Shown here: piece by piece, positions 925 to 60,800 of the stretch
How the letters are laid out: the number at the start of each line of letters is the position of its first letter
How positions within the stretch are numbered: position 1 is the first letter of the stretch
Notes under the pieces: generated by a model
What the model was told of the DNA's origin: nothing
Databases searched by the model: none
The model's input: the letters and a program-made list of their open reading frames with translations, nothing else
Translations under genes and position numbers: made by a program
Origin: Acorus gramineus
Lineage: Eukaryota; Streptophyta; Magnoliopsida; Acorales; Acoraceae
NCBI GenBank assembly: GCA_030737835.1
Contig: CM060848.1
Location: forward strand, 13,252,323 to 13,316,322
Direction of reading: 5' to 3'
Length of the DNA: 64,000 nucleotides

Positions 925-3900
925 CCTGAGGAGACCATTTTGGTTCTGTAGGAGATTCCACTACTGAAGGATTACCACCAGCGACACAACTGTGTTTGTA
1001 TACGTCTCTGTAGTAAGGCATAAAGCAGTTAATATGAGATCAAGAACCAAACCTTTGTAAGCTTCTTTAAACAATAAAATCAATAATCAAAAAGTTTGTG
1101 AAAAAAAAAATTGACATGACTCAGAATATGTAAAGCACCAGAGGAAATACAACCATTTGATGTCAATACCAGCTTACAAAAAAACTTGTGGAACAAATCT
1201 GTCTAAATTTCTCAAATTCATCTCTATTACAAATGCAATCATCCAGGCACATGGGAGAGACATTACACTTTTTTTAAAACAAAAAAAAGACATTACACTT
1301 TGAGACAATCCATGATCCCAAAAATCCATATGAAGGATAGCAAATTACAATTAGATATAATAACTTAACATTAATCAAATAGTTCCTTTCAAGCTAGCCT
1401 TTAATTGGATACTTACAATTCAAGTCCTACAAAAACTGCTATTTAAAAAAAGATTCCCATCACCTTGCTACCCCAGATTTACTAAAAGGTCTTCAAAAGG
1501 CTGAATTTTTACAAATCAACCATCCCGTGAATACCTATATGCAAATCAGATGCATTGCATTTGAAGTCATCCACCATTAATGTCGGACATCTCAAATGAT
1601 AGATACAAATTTCCCAGAAGTCCCTTGGAATAACAAGATATTTGAATAATAAGGTATTTTTTTCAAATCAATATTGCCTCCACTTTTCTTTGCTTAACCA
1701 ATTTTGATTATATATATTCTGTATGCCAATACATATCAGATTTTTATTGCTCATTTTTTAAACAAACGGTAGGAATTCTACAACCAAATTATATATTTAT
1801 CAAAGTCGGGGGGGTATAATGCCTTGAACGGAAAACAAGGAAAATAAATCAATAAAAGAGGATTCCACTAGACTGGCAAACTCAACACTCAGATAAACAC
1901 TCCACTATATCACAACTTCTAGTTTAATTCCCTCAAATCTCATTGCCTTTGCACTGCACAGTGCAGTGCCCAGATCTTGATGAAATTTTCACAGATCTCC
2001 CAATTATATCAGTTCAAACAAATAAGTAGACCACTAATTTGGAGATGTGGGTAATATACATTTCCACATATTTCATTCTTGAGTCATCTTTGATAAAGAG
2101 TAGCTACAGTGCTCAAAGATTTTATTTCTCGGATTTGAAACCCTATGTCACCCCAAAAATTTATATGCATGTCAGCCTTGAGAAAGGGATATATTTCCCT
2201 ACAGGTGTGCCCTTCCAAAGAAAATGAATTCATGCTCCCGTGGAGCTCCATCCATGCAGCATTTCACCTTCTAGAGTAGCATCGTGGATCATATTTTGCA
2301 ACTAAACTTAAAAATCAATTTATAAAGCCCAAACAAAATATCAATTTTCAATGAGCAACAATGCATACTTACCCGTCAGCCGATATATAGCCAACCCATA
2401 ATTCTGATCTATCCCAAGGCATATTTGGGTGACACCATTGAATCCATGCAATTCTCTTTCCATATGGGTCGATGCGAGGAAAGGCATAGAAATCACTTCC
2501 ACTAACTAATACCTTTGGCTCTAAGATTTAAAAATCCAGGACAGAGTAGTTAGTTGACCTTGGCAAACTTTATCCAGGGAAATTACAAAATAGGAGCACA
2601 TGGTATGCAAAAATTTATTTACCTTGAGCCTTTCCATCCTTCATATCAATAGCCACGATTGTTGTGGTTGGATTTAAACTGCTCTCACGATGATCTAACA
2701 GAAGAAATAAATAAAAATTTCAAATGACGCAATTATGCCATCTTTTGAAATGTAAATAAGATTGGACTTCACAAGCATACACAGAAGTTCACGAGACAAT
2801 TAAGCAACCAACCTTCCATCACAGTAATATATCGGTTTAAGTTTGAATCAAACACTCCATCTGCATAGCGAACTAGAGATTCCCCATAATCCAGAGTAAG
2901 AGCTACTGTAACATCATCTGCCAACAGGATGTCGAATCAGATTAACTGTTTCCAGATATGCACATCTAACATATAGATTCAAAAGGCTGCATAAGGAGTC
3001 TTGTTGCATCATAATATTAAATAGAGATAGAATAGATGATGTTTAATTGTGCATAATAAAGAGACCAGACTAATGCTTCTAGTCTTCTAGATATGCATGT
3101 TGAAGATTTTTTTATATATTTTTTTGTTGAAATGGTAGACCACTCCACTGCGATTTCAATATCATTAAAAACGAAGTATAAAGTCCGAAATAGAAGATAG
3201 GAAAAGAGATACAACATTACAATAATACCAAAGTTATCCACCTCGGCCATATTCCAAAACCCACTTACCCCATCAGGGGACTGTGGAAACTGTCCATGTA
3301 AAAGAGATTTCTACACGGACAGTCCCCCTAATCCCCCAGTACCCAGATACAATCGGACTACTAGACAATTACAAAGATGAATTCCTCTGAAGTCCACTGC
3401 ATGTGCCCCAGCAATAAACTGACCCCACTCTTTTATGCACCATCTCGTTTCTTCCCATATTTATCAACAAGCACTCTCAACACCGAGAATATGGTTGCAT
3501 TCTGTTGCCTACAAATGGCCCAAGCAGCCACCGGGATAAACGAATGTCTCTGATCTTGGCCACCTTCCTATTATCCCCCCACAAATCCAAGCTTTTACAC
3601 GCCTCCCACATTCCCTCCATAGAATTAAACTCCGGCAGCCCAGCTATCTCAGAAATTCTGGTCCAGATATGCTTGGCAATCGGGCAGGCACACAGTAAGT
3701 GCACAGTAGTTTCCTCGACATCCTGACATAACTCGCATATGGTCAGAAGCCCCAACTGCCACTTAGATCTGTAGGATTTTGTAAGCAGCCTTTCTTGGAA
3801 TGCCAACCACAGCATTTCACCTTTAGCAAATTCTTTGGATTCCAGATCTGTTTGGCTCTCATCATCTCCTGGTTTATCTCAGCTGATCTCCTGCAGTAAT

Positions 3901-6900
3901 CATAACCTTTATGCACCGAGAAGCTATCGTGACCATTAAACAGCCTTATCTTTGCTATCAGGAAGAAGGCTGGTGCTGCTGAGACGATCCATGAGTGAAG
4001 CAAACTGCACGATTTCGCTTTCGCTCAGATTTCTTCGCGTGATGATCTCCCATGGCCCCTGTCTATGACCCGGCTCCAGAACTCATAAACGAGTCCCTCT
4101 TTATTCACCACAACATTATATACGTCCTGGAACTCAAACATCAAGGACTGCCACCTATCCGTCCAGAATCTCGCCTTTAATCCATTTCCAATTTTCCAGC
4201 CGAGGGTCTCCACAAACTCCCTTCCATGAGCAAAGATGCCTCTGGCTAGAAATTGGATCTTGAATTCATAATAGGCAAGGGATCGGACATCCCATATCTC
4301 TCTCTGAATAACACTTTCCATGTGGCCTCCTCATCACTAACCCACTTCGAGGCCCATTTGGACAAGAGAGCCTGATTCATGTCCTCCAGGCTTAAAACTC
4401 CCACACCTCCTCTGCTTTTTCTGTGATACACCAGGTCCCATTTCACCAGATTAAAAGATAAATGAAATGGCATGACTTTTTCACCAGTAGATGAAATACA
4501 TATAATATGTTCCATGTATTTACTTAGGCAACTGTGCTATGCTATCTTATAAAAAAATTATGTAATTTTCGATAATCAAGGGAGTAATTGAGTAGAACAT
4601 AAAAGCATTAATCAAAGAACAAAAAGTTTCATGTAAGAAAATAAGTCATTTAGAAATGCAAATTAAAAGAAGAACAATGTGAAATAATTAATTCAAGGCC
4701 ACATAACAAACAAGCAATAAATTAAGATAGGGATGCAATAATATAGTTTGGTCAATATAATGTTCGGAGATCCATGGTTCACATTAGAAAACTCACTATC
4801 CAATTAGATCTTACAAATGAAATGTTCTATCAGGACCTTCCAAATTATCTAAATGATCTCTTACTACAAATATGTAATATTTTGAAAACCTTCGGTCAGT
4901 GTTTACAAATGCAGTATGTGTATATGTGGTTTGGTCCAGACATAGAACCGCATATGGGCAGGCGACCTGATGCAGGCCAGCATATGTTGTCCGCATGATT
5001 GAGAGAAAAAATAGGTTTTCCTTATTCTTCTATTTTTTCCTTCATTATATGGTTTGAATCAAAAACAGTGTGAATAGTGTAATGGTGTTTTAACGGTGGA
5101 CACAGCGGTGCAAATTGTCTACATAAATATAGAAATCACCTCTCAGTAATGAATACATGGTTTGGGGATTCATTCTTTTCAAGTGATTCCTAGTTTCTAA
5201 TTTTTTGTTTCATAATACTGGTCTCAATGTCTCATATGTTCATAAAATCTTAGTTCTTGGGATCTCAACAAATCAGCTAATAAATTATTTCATAAGTATC
5301 ATATTTTTTACAAATAAAAATACAAAACCATATATTCTCCCTCATACCGCATATACTCTATATGGTACCTAGGCGCTAGCAAACGGCGTACCGCATTTTC
5401 GAACACTTCCTAGATGAGTATTTCAATAGGTTATAGCTTATTTAAGTGAGTACAGAATGAAGTTATTTAATGTGTAGAAGATCCTTTTAGCAAATGTACC
5501 TCCGAAATGTTGCTTGTATAACCGTTGATCTTTGTAATTTGAGAATACAACCATATTCTTTGAAACTGCAAAGGCACCACCTCCATACTCTTGTGCCAAT
5601 GTTCGTGCAGCAAATTCTGAAGTAATGATATCTATAGGTTTACCTCCTGCTTCTGTTGGTTCCTTTACAAGGACAGCACGGCTGAGAAAATTTTAAAATC
5701 ATACAAGTTAAAAGCCAGATTTACATTTGTACAAATAGATTAGATAAAATTCAAATAGACAAATGATGTTACACAAATCAGAGAAACTATTGTGAAGCTA
5801 AAACAACCTGCATAATTGGAAGAAGTGTGTAACATATAGCTTTTCTTTTAAAAAGTTGGAGATTTTGAAGTCCATAAAACAAGTTGTATGTTTACACAAA
5901 AAACCATACATCTGGCAACGAATTTCTGTATCCAGTTCCTAATGCACAATTGTACATCCTCGTTGCTTTAAACCTGGTTACTAGGTCATATGCATGTCCT
6001 ATATCATTGGCGGGACAGTGTTAAATACCATCCCCTATCTGAATGTCAAGTAAGAAATGTTTGTTGTGTTCTGAATGTCACTCTTACACGAGACATCTGA
6101 GAACAAGCGGCAACTCAACTAATTGTTGCCGATTCAATTGCAATTTGTGAGATGATTCGGGCAAGTGAAACTCAAAGTTGTTGAAAGAGCTTGAGGGTTT
6201 AGTTATCCAGCACCGATGACTTAATATGGTATTAATATATTAATATTACATATTTTGAATTGTAATATGTCAATGTGCATTAGAGTTTGGTTCTTTTTTA
6301 ATTAAAAAAAAGTTTTAGTGTTTATTTTTTTTCATATGCAAGCACAAAAAAACTTATGAATCAGCACTTAAAATTCAGCATTAGATACTCACTAGAGAAT
6401 AGTGACTGAGCCCTTGTTGAATAGAAGAATAGACATAAAAAAAAATGGATGGAATAAGGGTGAATAAACCCAAAAAATGTTTGTTTGTAAGAAATAAGTG
6501 GGTACGACTATGCCAAAATAGGTGGAAATTAGTTGGAACTGCCATATTGGTATTCCATATCCCCAGGAATTGTGTTATTCCAACCATTATATTCCACTGG
6601 TACAATGGGGGGACCATATATGTCAAATCACATATTCACATGTTAAATATCTTTATAAATCTTTATCCAAATATTATACATTTTATTCACAACTTCATCA
6701 TTTTCAACCAAACAACAAAAACCCCATTATTAAGTTCCCCAATGAAAATAACAAAACATACAATCAAACAAAAACCTCATTATTAAGTTCCCCAATCAGA
6801 ATAACAAAATATACAATCAAACCAAAAATGACTTATTCCATTTGTATAGTTATCTATTATGAAATAGTTATATATTCTAGAATAGTTTTATATCGCTATC

Positions 6901-7259
6901 CAAACGGGGACTGAGGGTTCGATGTAATGCCACAAACAGAAGCAGCTCATGTAAATCAAACATTTTACTCACCCTCCCTCATCGGGCCGCGGCTCGATCC
7001 ACACGAGACGTCCATCTCCATCGACGGCGATCCCTCCGACCCGTTTATCCGCGCCGGATACCACGTCGGCCGTTATCGGAGACTTCCATGAACCATATGG
7101 CGCGGTGACCTTCTCGACTGCTGCTGCTGCTCCTTCCGAAGCCATCGCACCGGAGATCGAGAGGTGTCTCCTAACCCGTCCGATCGAAACCCTAAACCCA
7201 CTCGAGCCGCGTCAACTGAGGGCGAGAAGAGTAGATGACCTCGCTAGTAGTGAAGCCAT
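925..7259 (-). pseudogene. Partial duplicate of S9 prolyl oligopeptidase-like gene, exons 1-6
   Basis: Exons (minus strand): 6973-7259, 5500-5681, 2813-2917, 2623-2694, 2373-2520, 925-1007. All keep GT-AG sites and join in phase. They encode the N-terminal beta-propeller half of a homologue of Arabidopsis At5g36210, with family phrases such as [23 protein letters not shown] and [11 protein letters not shown]. Exon 1 has an in-frame TGA at codon 16 (7212-7214) where the other copy has TGC (Cys). An in-frame Met at codon 39 (7143-7145) precedes the conserved region, so a protein lacking the leader could still begin there. Exon 7 and the catalytic domain are not found before the window edge. I call it a pseudogene or truncated paralogue. 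A functional shorter gene continuing to the left cannot be excluded. Confidence 0.8.
3115..4525 (-). mobile_element. 5'-truncated LINE fragment in intron 2 of the partial peptidase copy
   Basis: Broken minus-strand frames at 4515-3477 match the C-terminal part of plant LINE ORF2. The order is a post-RT segment ([20 protein letters not shown]), then a zinc-binding RT-tail domain (CELC...HLLCACP). A typical LINE 3' UTR follows and ends in an A-tract (seen as T-runs at 3110-3125 on the plus strand). Several frameshifts show it is dead. The same fragment is in the duplicated copy at 37680-39060, so it was inserted before the duplication. Confidence 0.8.
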
Positions 7260-7398
7260 GTGCAATGATTAGGGTTTGATTAGTACGGCGGAACATGGAA
7301 GTTTTAGTGATCCTGCATGTGTGGCAGAATTTATGGTATGGGCTGTTTGAGTAGGAACGGGAGACCACGTGTCATGAGGTTGAAACAGGCATATATAA

Positions 7399-35300: not shown

Positions 35301-38300
35301 AACAATTCACCTGCGATGACCCAAAATGATATTAATTAAAAAAATATCGAAGTAACAGCAATAACTCACTAAAGTGTAAAAATGACCTTTACTTTTTCCC
35401 TATTTTTTAAATTGGCCAAGACCAATCAAAAAAACTTTCAAATGAGCCATTGAGCTCATTTCTAAAAGCAAGAGAAGGATTGATTTAATGCACCAAGCAG
35501 TCAAGAAATGCAAGTGGGCCTGTAATGAAATTTCTAGAAGCATGCATATAGTCATCTCAAAATTATTAAGCTAATTCTGATAGAATTTAAACAGATTTTA
35601 TCATAGTTTAAAGTGCAGCAACTCGTCGTACTCGTACTGGTAGGCGCACCCTTTCAAATGAACCATTTGCCATAATGTTGACATGGTAAAAAAAAAAAAC
35701 ACCTGATTGGAGAATTAAAAGGTGTTCCCATTTTAAAGAAATATCTTCCAATTGAAATTTAAAAATAATGATAAAAAAATGTACCCTGAGGAGACCATTT
35801 TGGTTCTGTAGGAGATTCCACGACTGAAGGATCACCACCAGCAACACAAATGTGTTTGTATACGTCTCTATAGTAAGGCATCAAGCGGTTAATATGAGAT
35901 CAAGAACCAAACATGTGTAAGCTTCCTTAAACAATAAAATCAATAATCAAGAAATTTGATAAAAAAAAATTTGACGACTCAGAATATGTAAAGCACCAGA
36001 GGAAATACAACCATTTGATGTCAACACAAGAATCTCTTACAAAAAACTGGTGGAACAAATATGTCTAAATTTTCTCAAATTCATCTATATCTATACCATT
36101 ACATATGCAATCATCCAGGCACATGGGAAAGACATTACACCTTTTAAAAAAAAAAAAAAGACATTACACTTTGAGACACTCCATGACGTCGAAATCCATA
36201 TGAGGTATAGCAAGTTACAATTGGAGCACATAATAACTTACATTAACCAAATAGTTCCTTTCAAGCTAGCCATATGGGTCATGACCAATAGGGTATTGAT
36301 TTTCCCTTTTTTACGTTCCAACAAGCCACACAAAATAGAGGAAGTAACATCATGTAGAAGTAGTAACTCAATGGTAGGTTTGTCCCCCTTCCTCCAACAA
36401 ACATTGCATTCTAATGATATACTTTCATTTATAAATAGATCATTCTCATTTTAAATTCATTTGTTGAAAAAAACAATGTATGAATAGTTAGCAAATTAAT
36501 ATTAATAAAATCACATGCAATCTTAAAAAATACATGTATAATTAAGCACCACCTAGGCGGCTAGGCGCATGGCCACCGCCTAGGCTCGCCTAGCCGTCTA
36601 GACAACTATGGAGGTTATATATATTTCCTCGTATTTCATTCTTGAGTCATCTTCGATAAAGAGAAGTAGCTACAGTATTCGGAGATTTTATTTCTCAGAT
36701 TTGAAACCCTATGTCATTCCTCAAAATTAATATGCATATCAGCCTTGAGAAAGGGATATATTTCCCTATGTGTGCCCTTCCAAAGAAAATGAATCCATGC
36801 TTCCGTGGAGCTCCATCCATGCAGCATTAGTTGACCTTTCTAGGGTTGGATCGTGGATGGTATATTGCAACTAAACTTAAAATCAATTTATAAAGCCCTA
36901 ACAAGATATCAATTTTCGATGAGCAACAATGCATACTTACCCGTCATCCGATATATAGCCAACCCATAGTTCTGATCTATCCCAAGGCATATTTGGGTGA
37001 CACCATTGAATCCATGCAATCCTCTTTCCATATGGGTCGATGCGAGGAAAGGCATAGAAATCACTTCCACTAACTAATACCTTTGGCTCTAAGATTTACA
37101 AAATCCAGGACAGAGTAGTTAGTTGACATTGGCAAACTTTATCCAGGGAAATTACGAAATAGGAGCACATGGTATGCAAAAATTTATTTACCTTGAGCCT
37201 TTCCATCCTTCGTATCAATAGCCACAATTGTTGTGGTTGGATTTAAACTGCTCTCACGATGATCTAACAGAAGTAATAAATAAAAGTTTCAAATGACAAA
37301 ATTATGCCATCTCTTGAAATGTAAATAATATTGGACTTTACAAGCATATGCAGCACACACAGAAGTTCACGAGACAACTAACCAACCAACCTTCCATCAA
37401 AGTAATGTATCGGTTTAAGTATGAATCAAACACTCCATCTGCATAGCGAACTACAGATCCCCCATAATCAAGGGTAAGCGCTACTGTAATATTATCTGCC
37501 AACAGGATGTTGAATTAGATTAACTGTTTCCAGATATGCACATCTAACATATAGATTCAAAAGGCTGCATAAGGAGTCTTGTTGCATCATAATATTAAAT
37601 AGAGATAGAATAGATGATGTTTAATTGTGCATAATAAAGAGAGCAGACTAATGCTTCTAGATATGCATGTTGAAGGATTTTTTTTTTTTATGGTAGACCA
37701 CTCCACCCCGATTTCATTATCATTAAAAGCGAAATACAAAGTCCGAAATAGAAGATAGGAAAAGAGATAAAATAAAACAATAACACCAAAGTTCTCCACC
37801 TCGGCCCTATTCCAAAACCCACTAACCCCATCAGGGGACTGTGGAAACTGTCCATGTAAAAGAGATTTCTACACGGACAGTCCCCCTAATCCCCCAGTTT
37901 CGCAGTTCTGAAACGTTACCGGAATTCGATGAAATTTTCGTGAGTGGCTTGAAATGGCACCAAGACACATAATATGCAGTTAGATTTTCAATCGGAGTCC
38001 TCAAACTCAGGATGATAGCTAACAGTCCAAGATTTTAGCGGTTCTGATCGAAAACGAAAAAAACTCAAAAACTGCCAGAATGCTCCAATGGTTACCAGAA
38101 GGCTAAAAGTGACACATATATAACATTCTCCCCCCCTTAGCAATCCAAGCTTTTACACGCCTCCCACATGCCCCCTATAGAATTAAACTCCGGCAGCCCA
38201 GCTATGTCAGCAATTCTGGTCCAGATCTGCTTGGCAATCGGGCAGGCACATAGTAAGTGCACTGTAGTTTCCTGCACAACTCGCATATGGTCGGAAACCC

Positions 38301-41300
38301 CAAATGCCACTTAGATCTGTAGGATTTTGTAAGCAGCCTTTCTGGGAATGGCAACCACATAAAGCACTTCACCTTTAGCGGGATCTTTGGATTCCAGATC
38401 TGTTTGGCTCTCCTCATCATCTCCTGGTTTATCTCCACTGATCTCCTCCACCAATCATAACCTTTATACACCGAGAAGCTACCGTGAGGATGAACCCATT
38501 AAACCGCCTTATCTTTGCTATCAGGAAGAAAAATGGTGCTGCTGAGACGATCCATGAGTGAAGCAAACTGCACGATTTCGCTTTCACTCAGATTTCTTCG
38601 CGTGATGATCTCCCACGACCCCTATGTATGAACCCGGCTCCAGAACTCATAAACGAGTCCCTCTTTATTCACTGCAACATTACATATGTCCTGGTACTCA
38701 GACCTCAAGGACTGCCACCTATCCATCCAGAATCTCACCTTTAATCCATTTCCAATTTTCCAGCTGAGGGTCACCGCAAACTCCCTTCCAAGAGCAAAAA
38801 TACCTCTGGCTAGAAAAGTGGATCTTGAATTCATAATATGCAAGGGATCGGACCACCCGTATCTCTCTCTGAATAACACTTTCCATGTCGCCTCCTCATC
38901 ACTAACCCACTTCCAGGCCAATTTGGACAAGAGAGCCTGATTCATGTCCTCCAGGCTTAAAACTCCCACACCTCCTCTGCTTTTTCTGTGATACACCAGG
39001 TCCCATTTCACTAGATTAAAAGCAAAATGAAATGGCATGACTTTTTTCACCAATATATGAAATAAATATAATATGTCCCATGTATTTGCTTAGGCAACTG
39101 TGCATATGCAATCTTATAAACAAATTATGTAATTTTCTATAATCGAGGGAGTAATTGAATAGAACATAAAAACATAAACCAAAGAACAAAAAGTTTCATG
39201 TAAGCAAATAACTCATTTAGAAATGAAATTAAATGACTTGATATTACAGTGGCAATTGTAATCCAATCAAAGAACCTCCCCAAGTTAAATCAAGGCCACA
39301 TAACAAACAAGAAATAAATTAAGATAGGGATGCAATAATATAGTTTGGTCAATAGAATGTATGGAGATCCATGGTTCACATTAGAAAACTCACTATCCAT
39401 TTAGATCTTACAAAAGAAATGGTCTATCAGGAGTCAGGACCTTCCAAATTATCTAAATGATCTCTTACTACAAATATGTAACATTTTGGAAACTTTTGGT
39501 CAGTGTTTACAAATGCAGTATGTGTAGTCTCATATGTGGTTTGGTCCAGACATAGAACCACATATGGGCAGGCGACCCGATATGCGGGCCAGGCCCGCAT
39601 ATGTTCGCATGATTGAGAGAAAAACAGATTTCCTTTATTTCCTTTTTCTTCTATTTTCTCCTTCATTATTTGGTTCGAGTCAACAACCATGTGAATAGTG
39701 TAATGGTGTTTAATGGTGGACACAGCGGTGAAATTTTTTTTTTTTTTGAAACATTTTTTTTGGGGGGTGCAACCCGATGACTTCCTAGGAGGTCACTCAT
39801 CATAGTATTACTCTCGCCCAAGCACGCTTAACTTCAAAATTCTGATGGGATTCCATGCATCAGTGTTGCTATGATCCAATGCAAATTGTCTACATAAATA
39901 TAGAAATCACCTCTCAATAATGACTACATGGTTTGGGGATTCATTCTTTTCAAGTGATTCCTAGTTTCTAATTTTTTGTTTCATGATATGGTCTCAATGT
40001 CTCATATGTTCATAAAATCTTAGTTCTTGGGATCTCAAAAAATCAACTAATGACCAAGCAAAAAAAAATCAGCTAATAAATTATTTCATAAGTATTATAT
40101 TTTTATTAATAAAAATACAAAACCACGTATCCTCCCGCATACCGCATATACTCTATGTGGTACCCAGGCACATGCAAACCGCGTACCGCATTTTCGAACG
40201 CTACCTTATGTAGATGAGTATTTCAATAGGTGATAGCTAATTTAAGTGAGTAAAGAATGGAATTATTTAATGTCTAGAAGTCTCTTAGATATCCTTTTAG
40301 CAAATGTACCTCCAAAATGTTGCTTGTATAACCGTTGATCTTTGTAATTTGAGAATACAACCATATTCTTTGAAACTGCAAAGGCACCACCTCCATACTC
40401 TTGTGCCAATGTTCGTGCAGCAAATTCTGAAGTAATGATATCTATAGGTTTACCTCCTGCTTCTGTTGGTTCCTTAACAAGGACTGCACGGCTGAGAAAA
40501 ATTTAAAACCATACAAGTTAAAAGCAAGATTTACATTTGTACAAATAGATTAGATAAATTCAAATAGACAAATGATGTTACGCAAATCGGGGAAACTATT
40601 TTGAAGCTAAAACAACCTGCATAATTGGAAGAAGTGCGTAACATATAGCTTTTCTTTTAAAAAGTTGGAGATTTTGAAGTCCATAGAACAAGTTGTATGT
40701 TTACACAAAAACCATACATCTGGCAACGAATTTCTGTATCCAGTTCCTAATGTACAATTGTACATAATCGTTGCTGTAAACCGGTTACTAGGTCATATAC
40801 ATGTCGACAGTGTTAAATATCATCCCTATCTGAATGTCAGTAAGAAATGTTTGTTGTATTCTGTACGTCACTCTTACAGGTGACAGTTGAGAACAAGCCG
40901 AGATTCTACAATGTAATTCAATTAATTGTTGCCAATTCAATTGCAACTGGTGAGATGATCCGGGCAAGTGAAACTCAAAGTGACTTGAAGTTGTTGAAAG
41001 AGCTTGAGGGTTTAGTTATCCAGTAGTTATCCAGCACTGATGAATTAATATGCTATTAGTATATTAATGTTACATTTTTGAATTGTAATATGTCAATGTG
41101 CATTAGTTTTAGAGTTTGGTTCTTTTTTATAATTAAAAAATAGTTTTAAGAGTTTGGAGATTTTGTTTTCAAATGCAAGCACAAAAACCTTATGAAATCA
41201 GCACTTAAAATTCAGCATTAGATTCTCATTGGAGAGTAGTGACTGAGCCCTTGTTGAATAGAAGAATAGACATGGAAAAGGATGGAATAGGGATGAATAA

Positions 41301-42060
41301 ACTCAAAAAATGTTTGTTTGTAAGGAATAAGTGGGTACAACTATGCCAAAATAGGTGGAAATTAGTTGGAATTACCGTATTAGTATTCCATGTCCCCCAG
41401 AATTGTGTTATTCCAACCATTATATTCCACTCGTACAATGGGGGGGCCATATGTCAAATCACATGCTATTACCTCTTCTAACTAGCCCGTGTCAAATATC
41501 TTTATAAATCTTTCCCCAAATATTATAAATTTATCCACAACTTATCCATGTTCAATCAAACAACAAAAACCTCATTATTAAGTTCCCCAATCAGAATAAC
41601 AAAATATACAATCAAACCAAAAATGACTCATTCCATTTGTATAGTTATCTATTATGAAATAGTTATATATTCTAGAATAGTTTTATATCGCTATCCAAAC
41701 GGGGACTGAGGGTTCGATGCAATGCCACAAACAGAAGCAGCTCATGTAAAAAATAAAACATTTTACTCACCCTCCCTCATCGGGCCGCGACTCGATCCAC
41801 ACGAGACGTCCATCTCCATCGACGGCGATCCCTCCGACCCGTTTATCCGCGCCGGATACCACGTCGGCCGTTATCGGAGACTTCCATGAACCATATGGCG
41901 CGGTGACCTTCTCGACTGCTGCTGCTGCTGCTCCTTCCGAAGCCATCGCACCAAAGATCGAGAGGTGTCTCCTAACCCGTCCGATCGAAACCCTAAACCC
42001 ACTCGAGCCGCGGCAACTGAGAGCGAGAAGAGTAGATGACCTCGCTAGTAGTGAAGCCAT
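17354..42060 (-). CDS. S9 prolyl oligopeptidase-like serine peptidase (At5g36210 homologue), 18 exons, complete
   Basis: Exons: 41771-42060, 40310-40491, 37391-37495, 37192-37263, 36941-37088, 35785-35867, 35256-35311, 24346-24482, 23403-23493, 23225-23290, 22884-23106, 20992-21093, 20625-20710, 20399-20521, 18633-18702, 18457-18548, 17546-17650, 17354-17467. They join in phase to 714 residues, near the Arabidopsis length. Residues 1-38 are Ser/Arg/Leu-rich and look like an organelle-targeting leader. The N-terminal half is the beta-propeller. The C-terminal alpha/beta-hydrolase has GKSAGG (Ser564), GLDDKIVP (Asp641) and GEQHGF (His673), the expected triad. It probably cleaves short peptides or acyl-aminoacyl substrates; the substrate is unknown. 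Intron 10 uses a GC donor. Intron 7 (24483-35255) is 10.8 kb and full of transposons. The start is the ATG at 42058-42060; Met39 is an alternative. Exon 7's edge could be off by one base. Identity of family is firm; function is inferred. Confidence 0.93.
19300..19474 (+). mobile_element. tRNA-derived SINE (family 2, copy 1) in peptidase intron 14
   Basis: Box-A-like GAGTTGGCTATTTGG, box-B-like AAGTTCAAATCTCC, a body ending GAGTTCCTCAGCACCC, then an A-tract. The 3' half (GGGTTTTCCCAAC ... AGTTCCTCA.CACC + A-run) matches the element at 56297-56490, which supports one SINE family. Antisense to the host gene. Target duplication not resolved. Confidence 0.65.
21985..22390 (+). mobile_element. LINE 3'-end fragment in peptidase intron 11
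   Basis: The plus-strand frame at 21985-22194 has the C-terminal LINE phrase [16 protein letters not shown] ... VWDSVDIFI, the equivalent of IWL.RN..(I/L)F in other copies of the window. A T/C-rich 3' UTR-like tail follows. Heavily truncated. Confidence 0.55.
24890..28475 (+). mobile_element. hAT DNA transposon with decayed transposase
   Basis: A 3,586-bp element with inverted termini CACTGTTTTAAATCGCGA and CAGTGTTTTAAATATCGA (right end complemented). It is bounded by the exact 8-bp duplication CTCAGAAC (24882-24889 and 28476-28483). Subterminal regions are packed with ATATCGAT-type motifs, likely transposase binding sites. It contains a long G-run near 25150 and a transposase pseudogene. 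Inserted inside the MITE at 24600-28639. Confidence 0.93.
25670..28215 (+). pseudogene. hAT transposase (BED finger, DUF659, hAT dimerisation region), inactivated
   Basis: The ATG at 25670 opens a frame with a BED-type zinc finger ([20 protein letters not shown] ... RLKEHILH). It is followed after frameshifts by the DUF659 catalytic region (CDGWTDR near 26425; [20 protein letters not shown] at about 26647-26706) and a C-terminal hAT region ([10 protein letters not shown]; later acidic tail with DDDDDEEDE, ending at 28215). Stops and frameshifts occur between 26090 and 27030, with another stop at about 27910. It encoded the enzyme that would move this element; it is not functional as it stands. 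Confidence 0.88.
29281..29473 (+). repeat. Copia 5' LTR
   Basis: 193 bp, from TATTGGAGTTATTGG to CCATTTATTT. Contains TATATAAGG near 29421 as the likely promoter. It carries a G/C-rich inverted motif (GGGGGGCAACGCCCCCC) near 29337. The LTR starts TA rather than the usual TG. Confidence 0.93.
29479..29491 (+). promoter_or_regulatory. Copia primer binding site
   Basis: TGGTATCAGAGCC, complementary to the 3' end of plant initiator tRNA-Met, five bases after the 5' LTR. It would prime minus-strand cDNA synthesis. Confidence 0.9.
29589..33941 (+). pseudogene. Copia gag-pol polyprotein with two single-base frameshifts
   Basis: The frame opens at the ATG at 29589. In order: gag (29660-30260), RGRGRG-rich linker and CCHC knuckle [14 protein letters not shown] (about 30405), protease DSGATEHM (about 30748), preintegrase [10 protein letters not shown], integrase core ([22 protein letters not shown], 31325-31660), RT ([12 protein letters not shown] ... 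YVDDIIITG, 32535-33010), RNase H ([16 protein letters not shown], 33470-33900) and a stop at 33941. The reading frame shifts near 31870 and near 33053. Otherwise no stop interrupts about 1,450 codons. Both shifts are consistent with one-base indels, so this copy is recently inactivated, or the shifts are sequencing errors. Confidence 0.93.
33940..33948 (+). promoter_or_regulatory. Copia polypurine tract
   Basis: GAGGGGGAG immediately before the 3' LTR, the usual primer for plus-strand synthesis. Confidence 0.85.
33949..34141 (+). repeat. Copia 3' LTR
   Basis: 193 bp, two differences from the 5' LTR. Followed by the target duplication CTTCT. Confidence 0.93.
34640..34852 (+). mobile_element. 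Short LINE 3'-UTR fragment
   Basis: Plus-strand GGAGATCCCTCATCTCCATTTTGTTCGA ... AGCTCCTATCTTTTCCTC then an A-run. This matches the 3' tail of the full LINE (complement of 57960-58035). Only the tail is present, and orientation is opposite to the neighbouring LINE fragment. Confidence 0.5.
37680..39060 (-). mobile_element. LINE fragment in intron 2 of the complete peptidase gene
   Basis: Paralogous copy of 3115-4525. Frames at 39053-38622 ([20 protein letters not shown]) and 38471-38202 ([15 protein letters not shown]) are again the LINE C-terminal region and zinc-binding domain. The T-run at 37680 marks the poly-A end. About 240 bp (37898-38135) differ completely from the left copy. Confidence 0.8.
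39763..39877 (-). pseudogene. Retroposed 5S rRNA pseudogene with poly-A tail
   Basis: The complement reads as nearly full-length plant 5S rRNA. It has GATCCCATCAG-like start features, the internal box-A core AAGCGTGCTTGGGCGAGAGTA, a box-C segment GATGAGTGACCTCC and the 3' end GGGTTGCACCCC. It is followed directly by two A-tracts (T-runs at 39731-39762 on plus). Scattered substitutions show it is not a working gene. The left duplicate reads straight through this point (about 5105), so the insert is specific to this copy. Flanks (GTGAAATT and ATGCAAATT) may be a short imperfect target duplication. Confidence 0.85.
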
Positions 42061-42516
42061 GTGCAATGATTAGGGATTGATTAGTACGGCGGAACATGGA
42101 AGTTTTAAGTGATCCTGCATGTGTAGCAGACTATTATGGTATGGGCTCTGCTTTGAGACAAGTTTCACACTTACAACTTCTTCTATATTATATGAGTTTC
42201 ATAAAAAAAATGGATAACTTTTTCGTTTTCTTGGCCTTCTACCTACTAGCTTAGCCCACTTTACAATAGGTTAGGGAGAACTGGGGGCTATGGGAAAGAC
42301 AGCAAGAATGACAGTGTTGTATCAACATCACTAACAAACATCATGCCCTATGTAGTTTCGTCTGCAATGCCAATCATTAGGATGCACAGCAAAGGAAAAC
42401 AAGTTTTGAGTGCAGTGAATATAGACAACAGAAGGCACTAGAATAGGCATGAAAAAGATGGATAACATGTTTACAAAAAAATAAAAAAAAGATGGACAAC
42501 GTGATGATAAATTGAA

Positions 42517-57800: not shown

Positions 57801-60800
57801 TAATGGGAATCATGGGGGATCCTCATATGAAGAGATTGACTCATTAGCTCTTTTTATTGGGCTTGAGGCTGGATGCCCAAATTATACTGCGGCAACTCAG
57901 AATTCTGCCTTGCAGGTAAGAGAATCTATGATAATAATTTTGTTGGTTACTTTGATATTTTTTTTTTTGAATAAAGATAGGAACTTTTATTGATTAAAAA
58001 CCCCCGAACAAAAGGAGACGAGGGATCTCCAATAAAATTACAAAAGTATGATTTGACGAAAATCCCAAATCATAGAAATAAGAAAATAATTTGAATCACT
58101 TCCTTGTGAACCACAATAGACTCATAACCGTGGTAGGATTATCTTCTTGGAGGATCATCTTCACCCAATCCTTAAGCAAGAATGAAATATGCGCCTAAGT
58201 GTTTTCCACATACACCCTCTTTCTTTGAAATAAACATTCATTCCGCGTCAACCAAATACTCCAACACACCACATGAGGAATGAAAGACTGAAATTTAGCT
58301 ATATTACTACAGTTCCCTTTTTTCTGTCTCTGAAGGAATAGGTTCCACATCTCATCAATATTAAGGAAATTACACGACGAACCAATAGCTTCCCCAACCA
58401 ATTCCCAAATCGATAAGACGAATGGACATGTAAAGAACAAATGCTCCCTATCCTCCTCGGCACCACCACATAGCAAACATGAAGTATCACCGTTGGGAAC
58501 CCATTTTGCCCTATTAACCTTGGTGAGCACTTTGTTCACGGAGTGTAACCACATAAACGCTCTGATTTTCAAAGGCGCTAGAGTACTCCAAATAAGAGTA
58601 TGGGTGTTCACAGACGGAATTGGAGATGATACTTTGTTAATCTTCTGATAAAGGATTTTCACCGAGAACCCAAGAAGAGGTGCCAATTTCCATATTACCA
58701 CATCCTCATCTTCCAATTTTAACTCCACACCTTGTAGAAGATCCATAAGATTAGTAAATTCCATGGCTTCGACATCATTTAAATTTCGGCGCAATCGAGG
58801 ACACCAATGATAGAGTTAACGCTACAAGTAAAAGAGTCACGTATCAAGTCTTCCACATAATTTAGTTTCAACTCCATTGCCTGGAATAAAAATTGAGAAT
58901 TCTTTAATTCTTTAATTGCCTCTGCACTCTCGAGTATATCCTTCCAAATTTTGGACATAGCAGCTCTAGAATGAGGGATTAACTCTAAACGCGTGCATTT
59001 CTTATAATATTTCTCTCTAATAACTCGGATCCAAAGCGAGTCCTGGTCAGCAATTAAACGCCATAGCCACTTGCCCAACATTGCCTTATTCATATTTTGA
59101 AGGTTAAGAACTCCCATGCTGCCGTCTTTCTTATCCCTGCAGACAAGGTCCCACTCAGCCAAATATGGTCCCAAACCTGCATCTTTAGTACCACGCCATA
59201 AGAATCTCCTCCTAATCTTGTCCACCTCATTAAGAATGCCGACTGGAATCTTGAATATAGAGAGAATAAATTGGGAGTCTTGTAAGAACCACATTGAGAA
59301 GAACCAACCTGCCCCCCAAACTAAGTGCTCTCCCTTTCCACCCTTCAAGTTTTTTGCTGAACCTATCGATAAGAGGTGCCCAAGGTATTTGGTCTCTCTT
59401 CTGAAGCGATGAGGTGTGCAGAGGTAGCCCAAGGTATTTGGTCGGAAAGCTAGCGGCTTTGCAATTCAAGCGGGTGGCGATAATATTTACCTTGTCCAAG
59501 GGGATATGAATACCAAATAAATTACTCTTGTTAAGGTTAACCTTGAGGCCCAAGAGAATACCAAAGCACTTAATAATAAACACAAAACTGTCCAGATTGC
59601 TTTCCCTCTCGTCACAAAGGAGAATTGTGTCATCCGCATATTGAATATGAGAAACACGAGAGCCTCCTTTTGTTACCTCGAGACCATGAATCCAAACAAG
59701 TGACACTCCCTTGTGAATCATACGACTAAGGACATTAGCACCGAGAATAAATATGAAGGGTGAGAGAGGGTCCCCTTGCCGAAGACCTCTTCCCCGAATT
59801 AAAATACCCCACTGCTTTGCCATTAACAAGGATTGAGAGCTTAATTGTGCTGATACACTCCTTGGGCCACCATAACCATTTCGATGAGAAACCATAATCC
59901 TTCAGAAGTTGCCAAAGAAAATCCCACCGAACAGAATCATAGGCCTTCTCAAAATCCAACTTGCATAGGAAACCTGTCAGTCTCGAGTTATGTGCCCCTG
60001 CTACACATTCTTGGGCAATCAAGAAACCATCTAGAAGAGATCTTCCTTGAATGGATGCTGACTGGCTGAGGTCCACTAACTCTTTAAGTACACTCCGTAG
60101 TCGACTGGCCAAAACCTTTGCAATAATTTTATAAGAGCTGTTGAGGAGGCTAATAGGGCGATAATCACTAACTCGATGTGCTCCACTCTTCTTAGGAATG
60201 AGGGCAATAAAAGTGGCGTTGAGACACCCACAACCCTGTCGACCAGAGTGAAATTCCTCAAACATTTCCATTACATCTTCCTTGACCACATGCCAAAACT
60301 ATCCGGACCAAGGGCTTTATCCCCTTCCATTCCCAGAACTGCAGTTTTAACCTCCTCTGTAAATGGAGCATCAAGAGCCAATCTCTGTATTTTGGAAAGT
60401 TGAGGAAGAGAATCATCATGCCAGACCGGGAGCCAAGAACTATCTTTGTGAAAGAAGGATCTGAAATGGTTTCTGATATGATTTTCAATATCTTCCTTAA
60501 GTCTCCAGATTAACATCACCCTCCATAATAGAAGTGATGAGATTTTGGCACCTCCTTGAGTTTGCAGTCCTATGAAAGAATTTGGAATTGCCGTCACCAG
60601 ATTTCAGCCGGTCGGGCGCTGGAGCCGGATCGGGCAGCTGGGCCGAGCGCGAGCGGGTGCTGGGCCGGGCGTGCGCGGGCACGAAGCACTGGAGCCGGGA
60701 CGCGTTGACGCGTCTGGCTCGGGACGAATTCCCGGGAGATCCGGGATGCTGTCCGTGACAGAATCCAGGACAGGATCCCAGGAAATCCAGGCTGATCGGC

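Follow-up and report, generated by a model that had tools for sequence, protein, structure and literature searches.

A 64,000-nucleotide stretch of the Acorus gramineus genome (assembly GCA_030737835.1, contig CM060848.1; C2:13252323-13316322, hereafter the window) was found to carry, in only one of two duplicated segments, a minus-strand insert consisting of a nearly full-length 5S rRNA sequence, a short A-rich tail and poly(A). Retroposition of this element is well supported: it is bounded by a target-site duplication (TSD), its empty site is preserved in the other duplicate, it ends in an A-tail, and other 5S copies in the genome are joined to sequence of long interspersed elements (LINEs), in agreement with the LINE-type retroposition proposed in a preliminary description of the window. 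On balance we favour the reading that the element belongs to a low-copy lineage of 5S-derived short interspersed elements (SINEs), which an L1-type LINE would have founded by a template jump onto 5S precursor RNA.

The 5S-derived element and its insertion site

The element, its parts and its surroundings were delimited as follows.

39736..39879, minus strand: whole inserted element without its TSD, ~144 bp, absent from the left duplicate; ends read by eye
39762..39876, minus strand: 5S rRNA portion, spanning 5S position ~7 through the mature 3' terminus; aligned by eye to array 5S
39748..39765, minus strand: last bases of the 5S 3' trailer (CC-AAA), then the short tail AAAAATGTTTC, which resembles the tails of loci L009/L012 and L010/L011 (alignment of tailed copies); overlaps the 5S part owing to an ambiguous run of C
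39736..39747, minus strand: A-tail of 12 A, or up to 14 if two target-site A are counted
39880..39887, minus strand: 5' copy of the TSD, AATTTGCA (TGCAAATT on the plus strand), defined against the empty site
39729..39735, minus strand: 3' copy of the TSD, AATTTCA (TG-AAATT on the plus strand), with one base lost, defined against the empty site
5109..5116, plus strand: empty site TGCAAATT in the left duplicate
38142..41623, plus strand: right duplicate block holding the insert; left counterpart 3584-6774, BLAST identities 87.8% and 86.5% with gaps counted

In an Rfam scan, RF00001 (5S rRNA) matched 39768-39882 on the minus strand (48.8 bits, E 4.1e-07; gathering score 38). No other match in the window reached its gathering score; relaxing the limit to E 1 brought up two more, both well under theirs. 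Together with the 12-14 A, the match bears out the near full-length antisense 5S sequence ending in an A-tract that had been described. The first ~6 bases of the 5S were absent or replaced (alignment, by eye), and 103 of 118 aligned bases were identical to the 5S of the genomic array; 9 of the 15 differences were C>T or G>A. On the sense strand, the 5S is followed by AAAAAAAATGTTTC and then by A14, the final two A being possibly target-site bases. The promoter was located by limits which we take to be 50-64 for box A, 67-72 for the intermediate element (IE) and 80-97 for box C: box A and IE were unchanged and box C had three changes (81, 86 and 97); the preliminary description had called the boxes recognisable. 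Judged from its sequence, the element has a sense 5S-derived head with a predicted internal promoter, a feature of SINE3-type elements.

A direct duplication with copies ~34.8 kb apart was detected in the window by BLAST. Substitution distances between the duplicates ranged over 0.062-0.088 for four of the blocks, the last one giving 0.019; for the blocks beside the insert, counting substitutions only, p was 0.084 and 0.071 and the Kimura two-parameter distance (K2P) was 0.089 and 0.075, the second block being taken to 41561. Positions 3584-5116 were paired with 38142-39735 and 5109-6774 with 39880-41623, with an 8-base overlap, and the left duplicate reads GCGGTGCAAATTGTC without interruption. 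The 5S insert is present in the right copy only, and its clean absence from the left one, as first reported, is upheld by both the block pairing and the unbroken sequence. The last duplication block (6767-7344 / 41562-42147) was 96.8% identical by BLAST, compared with 86-91% in the preceding blocks, which suggests gene conversion or constraint.

Dispersed 5S copies, shared tails and LINE joints

The 398.6-Mb genome (137 contigs) was searched for 5S sequences, and the resulting counts are lower bounds because 40 of 98 candidates were scored. At least 41 matches were obtained: 1 in the window, 24 in an array on C9 (20.415-20.432 Mb, units of ~738 bp), 2 on C1 and 14 dispersed. One further copy, L012b, was recognised on reading the fetched loci, giving at least 15 dispersed copies. 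These represent ~10 independent loci, since three pairs lie in duplicated stretches (L009/L012, 95.1% identical over 2.9 kb, with two copies in L012; L010/L011, 96.9% over 4.4 kb; L017/L018, 98.5% over 2.3 kb) and L014 holds two copies. Including the window copy, 13 of 16 copies start by 5S position 7 (exceptions L014a, L017 and L018), and in all 16 the match enters the 3' trailer, reaching position 122 or beyond. Divergence from the array 5S was 0-6% in the copies joined to LINE coding sequence (L014, L017-L020) and in L021, and 7-19% in the other copies; with these two classes, gain of 5S has probably been long-lasting. On C1, the two 5S units (L022:1948-2641) adjoin fragments of large-subunit rRNA that share their strand. 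At L021:2041-2159 (C127), a 5S identical to that of the array lies outside it, with neither a visible A-tail nor array spacer.

A joint of the form CCAAA(T)-A5/6-nn-TTTC-poly(A) was common to the window copy, L009/L012 and L010/L011 (six aligned copies from three independent loci). In the alignment, the trailer end CCAAA(T) is followed by A5-6, two or three variable bases, TTTC or TCTC, and poly(A); the non-5S tail is short (10-13 nt) and not identical between the loci. The chance of TTTC preceding an A-run at two further loci was estimated at ~3e-5, a rough, after-the-fact figure with assumed base frequencies. The substitution T109G was shared by the window copy and L010/L011 and occurred in none of the 28 other 5S stretches that cover this base, of 30 examined (array loci L023/L024, C1 locus L022). 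The distance from GTTGCA to the A-run, counted by eye, was 20 bases in the window copy and L010/L011 and 24 in L009. L013 has an A-rich tail that is unlike the short-tail joint. When TSDs were sought blindly, the number of random placements (up to 500) scoring as well as the true one was 5 for L009, 13 for L012b, 16 for L011, 9 for L016 and 0 for L013 (gapped).

The shared joint, T109G and the equal tail length appear to favour a common source for the window copy and L010/L011, that is, a small SINE lineage. Dispersed copies with poly(A), suggested earlier as a sign of such a family, were thus found, and with a shared tail, but at two other independent loci rather than many; and the window copy, which had been thought capable of seeding a 5S SINE, looks instead like one product of a small set already in place. 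A diverged copy of the element in the window was sought with a sequence model built from the six copies with tails, which scored the known copy at 118.5 bits and 22 other matches at 7.1 bits or less. On the 13 fetched loci, with filters off, the same model returned the 15 known copies and four matches under 8 bits.

At other loci, 5S sequence was joined to further RNA-derived or LINE-like parts.

L015:1905-2139 (C2:19137814 region): multi-part retro-insertion of 5S with terminator, complete U6 and a second 5S 3' end
L017:2056-2168 and L018:1983-2095: 5S joined into LINE open reading frame (ORF) 2, first ~23-25 5S bases missing; 5'-truncated chimera, the two loci being one duplicated stretch
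L014:1902-2215, L019:1991-2186 and L020:1988-2120: 5S directly before a LINE ORF1-like frame with zinc knuckles

L015 comprises, in order, a 17-base TSD ACATATATATGCTGCCT (by eye), a 19-base stretch, 5S that retains its trailer and the terminator T (CTCCTTTT), complete U6 small nuclear RNA (99.5 bits), the 3' end of the second 5S, an AATAAA-bearing T-rich 3' end, and A14. In L016, 5S is followed by ~55 bases of T-rich 3' end, A7 and a TSD. By their look, the T-rich 3' ends of both loci may be LINE sequence. More than 1 kb of ORF2 was read in L017/L018, stopping short of the LINE 3' end and TSD, and the L017 frame was matched in Pfam by zf-RVT (3.2e-13). The L020 frame was matched by zf-CCHC (0.00029) and, below the cut-off, by DUF4283 (0.02); the L019 frame gave only zf-CCHC at 0.022, below the cut-off. 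L014, linked to this group by a body 89.6% like L019 over 1.4 kb, has two 5S copies, one of them 5'-truncated. The 5S of L019 and L020 is ~99% identical to array 5S. Different sequence lies between 5S and ATG in L014 and L019, so 5S was probably gained separately by the two. Wherever 5S was joined to LINE coding sequence (four loci), the two shared one orientation, and the copies ahead of ORF1-like frames may represent promoter capture. The open reading frames of the window itself include copia-like and LINE-like ones; LINE-like frames lie at ~57958-60289 on the minus strand, with the 3' end AATAAAAGTTCCTATCTTTATTC followed by A11.

Proposed origin and its alternatives

The source of the element would be an RNA polymerase III (Pol III) 5S transcript that retained part of its 3' trailer and was joined to a very short A-rich tail with poly(A). 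The chimera probably arose in the course of copying: a LINE reverse transcriptase would have transcribed the 3' extremity of the LINE RNA and then jumped to the 3' end of the 5S precursor; the near-full-length 5' starts and the matches into the 3' trailer point to 5S precursor RNA as the acceptor, whether for a template jump or for RNA ligation, the alternative way of making the joint. Insertion would have followed by target-primed reverse transcription, for which an L1-type LINE is the likeliest agent, and the window copy, L009/L012 and L010/L011 probably derive from one lineage of source elements. A LINE origin of the tail, the agency of an L1, a common source and a joint made by template jump rather than ligation are all inferred; the putative LINE part of the window copy would amount to at most ~11 bases.

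Several observations count against this scheme. The blind direct-repeat test missed the window TSD (319 of up to 500 random placements were as good), because the repeat has few bases, is imperfect and runs into the stretch of A, and the TSD claim is therefore based on the empty-site comparison. The test also failed for L010 (312) and L015 (443; here the wrong A-run was taken) and was weak for L012a (43). The tail is common to no more than three independent loci, and it varies between them (ATGTTTC, CAGTTTC, CTTCTC/CTTTTC). The only LINE 3' end read in the window, AATAAAAGTTCCTATCTTTATTC-A11, differs from the 5S tails. The LINE nature of L014, L019 and L020 is drawn from weak domain hits, the stretches read stop short of reverse transcriptase, and the ORF2 piece of L018 gave no Pfam hit. 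Two transversions of the window copy are found elsewhere, G81T in L014b and C105A in L013, so T109G too may be shared by chance; this conflicting sharing of substitutions opposes a simple family tree and weakens the case for clear subfamilies. Finally, the insert has 15 changes in 118 aligned bases, where a single branch should have accumulated at most ~4.6 since the duplication (Poisson with equal rates, P 9e-5); for transversions alone the figures are 5 and 2.1 (P 0.06).

The most serious competitor, which we regard as possible but clearly less probable than a small lineage, is that the loci are one-off 5S/LINE template-jump chimeras that arose independently, with no SINE family, their joints being alike through microhomology between the 5S trailer (AAAT) and the LINE poly(A) signal (AATAAA). 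The variety of what follows 5S speaks for it: ~55 nt in L016, U6 and a 3' end in L015, more than 1 kb of ORF2 in L017/L018 and ORF1-like starts in L014, L019 and L020. So do the changes in the older copies: most are decay of the C>T or G>A type, and they form no evident ladder of subfamilies. It is opposed by the recurrence of the same joint at three loci, and by the tail length and T109G common to the window copy and L010/L011, the latter with its 0 of 28 occurrences elsewhere. Two other identities of the window copy are far less credible. Cassandra, a terminal-repeat retrotransposon in miniature (TRIM), occurs widely among vascular plants, and its long terminal repeats (LTRs) contain 5S (PMC7215508, PMC10886601). 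That the insert is a remnant of it is nevertheless extremely improbable: beyond 5S the insert has only a ~14-base tail and the A-run, and no LTR-like direct repeats flank it within 39300-40300. Cassandra TSDs, moreover, are 5 bp long, whereas that of the window copy is 8 bp, and a Cassandra origin was rejected. Scarcely better is a DNA-level copy of the 5S array, made for instance by repair or from an extrachromosomal circle; near-identical 5S does lie outside the array at L021 and L019, but the array trailer runs on as ACCAAATCTCCTTTTTTG, and the window copy has an A-rich tail, poly(A) and a TSD instead. A 5S rDNA array in place was likewise rejected, the window holding a single 5S and the array lying on C9. 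Neither flanking LTR or Cassandra sequence (39300-40300) nor a local 5S array (window), which the preliminary description had named as evidence against retroposition, was found.

The date of the insertion is a separate matter, and an older insert would fit either a lineage or one-off chimeras. It is rather unlikely, yet worth weighing, that the insert is older than the duplication and that the left copy has since shed it cleanly, for example by recombination between the target-site copies or by gene conversion from an empty allele. The excess of changes given above favours such an age, and the transversions fit an age that corresponds to the full distance between the duplicates (P 0.40). The empty site, on the other hand, is precise and without remnant, and the excess could be explained by methylated-cytosine decay, the type of 9 of the 15 changes, or by a source that had already diverged. 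Divergence of the insert consequently gives a conflict of ages and not a date. The dated insertion after the duplication that had been proposed keeps its empty site on the left, but with 15 changes against at most 4.6 it is doubtful.

Comparison with known 5S-bearing elements

SINE3 elements include zebrafish SINE3, AmnSINE1, the 5S SINEs of fruit bat and springhare, insect HaSE3 and SINE3-1_TC. Their partners are CR1, I or RTE LINEs and their hosts vertebrates and some insects (PMC7245038); HaSE3 is thought to have been born by template switching onto 5S rRNA (PMC3272025), and 5S-related SINEs have been reported in a fungus (PMC5063351). The Acorus element resembles SINE3 in its sense 5S head with predicted internal promoter, its 3' tail and its TSDs. 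It differs in the few copies found, in a nearly absent body and in its likely partner, a poly(A)-using plant L1. In flowering plants, LINEs are almost only of the L1 clade, and relaxed poly(A) recognition has been proposed for a plant L1 lineage (PMC3747384); an L1 partner of this kind would fit both.

Literature searches turned up no 5S-derived SINE from a plant. PMC3095306 mentions 5S-like sequences among SINE3 elements 'including plants', citing the Cassandra paper. In the literature found, animals and a fungus are the reported hosts of 5S-derived SINEs, and the plant mobile element with 5S is the LTR element Cassandra. The window copy is like Cassandra in being a plant mobile element carrying 5S rRNA and unlike it in having no LTRs. 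Cassandra has been speculated to have begun as a SINE3 insertion into an LTR (PMC10886601); a plant 5S-SINE, if real, would supply the right kind of element for such a precursor. We advance only tentatively the wider proposition that this host has a 5S-derived SINE born of an L1 jump onto 5S precursor RNA, that its LINEs gain 5S ahead of ORF1 and with it a possible Pol III promoter, and that the SINE is of the kind from which Cassandra could have come. Within it, 5S directly before LINE ORF1-like frames offers a testable case of promoter capture.

Mammalian LINE-1 chimeras carry a small RNA (U6, 5S) on the 5' side of the LINE, have TSDs and arise in a single event by template switching or RNA ligation; according to the same paper, 5S/LINE-1 chimeras are mostly antisense and truncated and U6 chimeras sense and full length (PMC13174262). 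In Acorus, by contrast with the mammalian 5S cases, 5S was in sense at 4/4 LINE-coding loci and near full length in 13/16 copies, and in both respects the plant 5S cases resemble the mammalian U6 chimeras. Capture by LINEs of sense, mostly near-full-length 5S precursor, with or without U6, would suggest that plant L1 elements jump onto Pol III RNAs, in parallel with mammalian LINE-1 and with the opposite 5S orientation. Therian tailless 5S retropseudogenes are L1-mobilised, have TSDs, are 3'-truncated and are without A-tails, and for maize the study reports only eight tailless cases, of U2 (PMC5322556). The window copy is like the therian 5S retropseudogenes in its TSD and unlike them in its A-tail.
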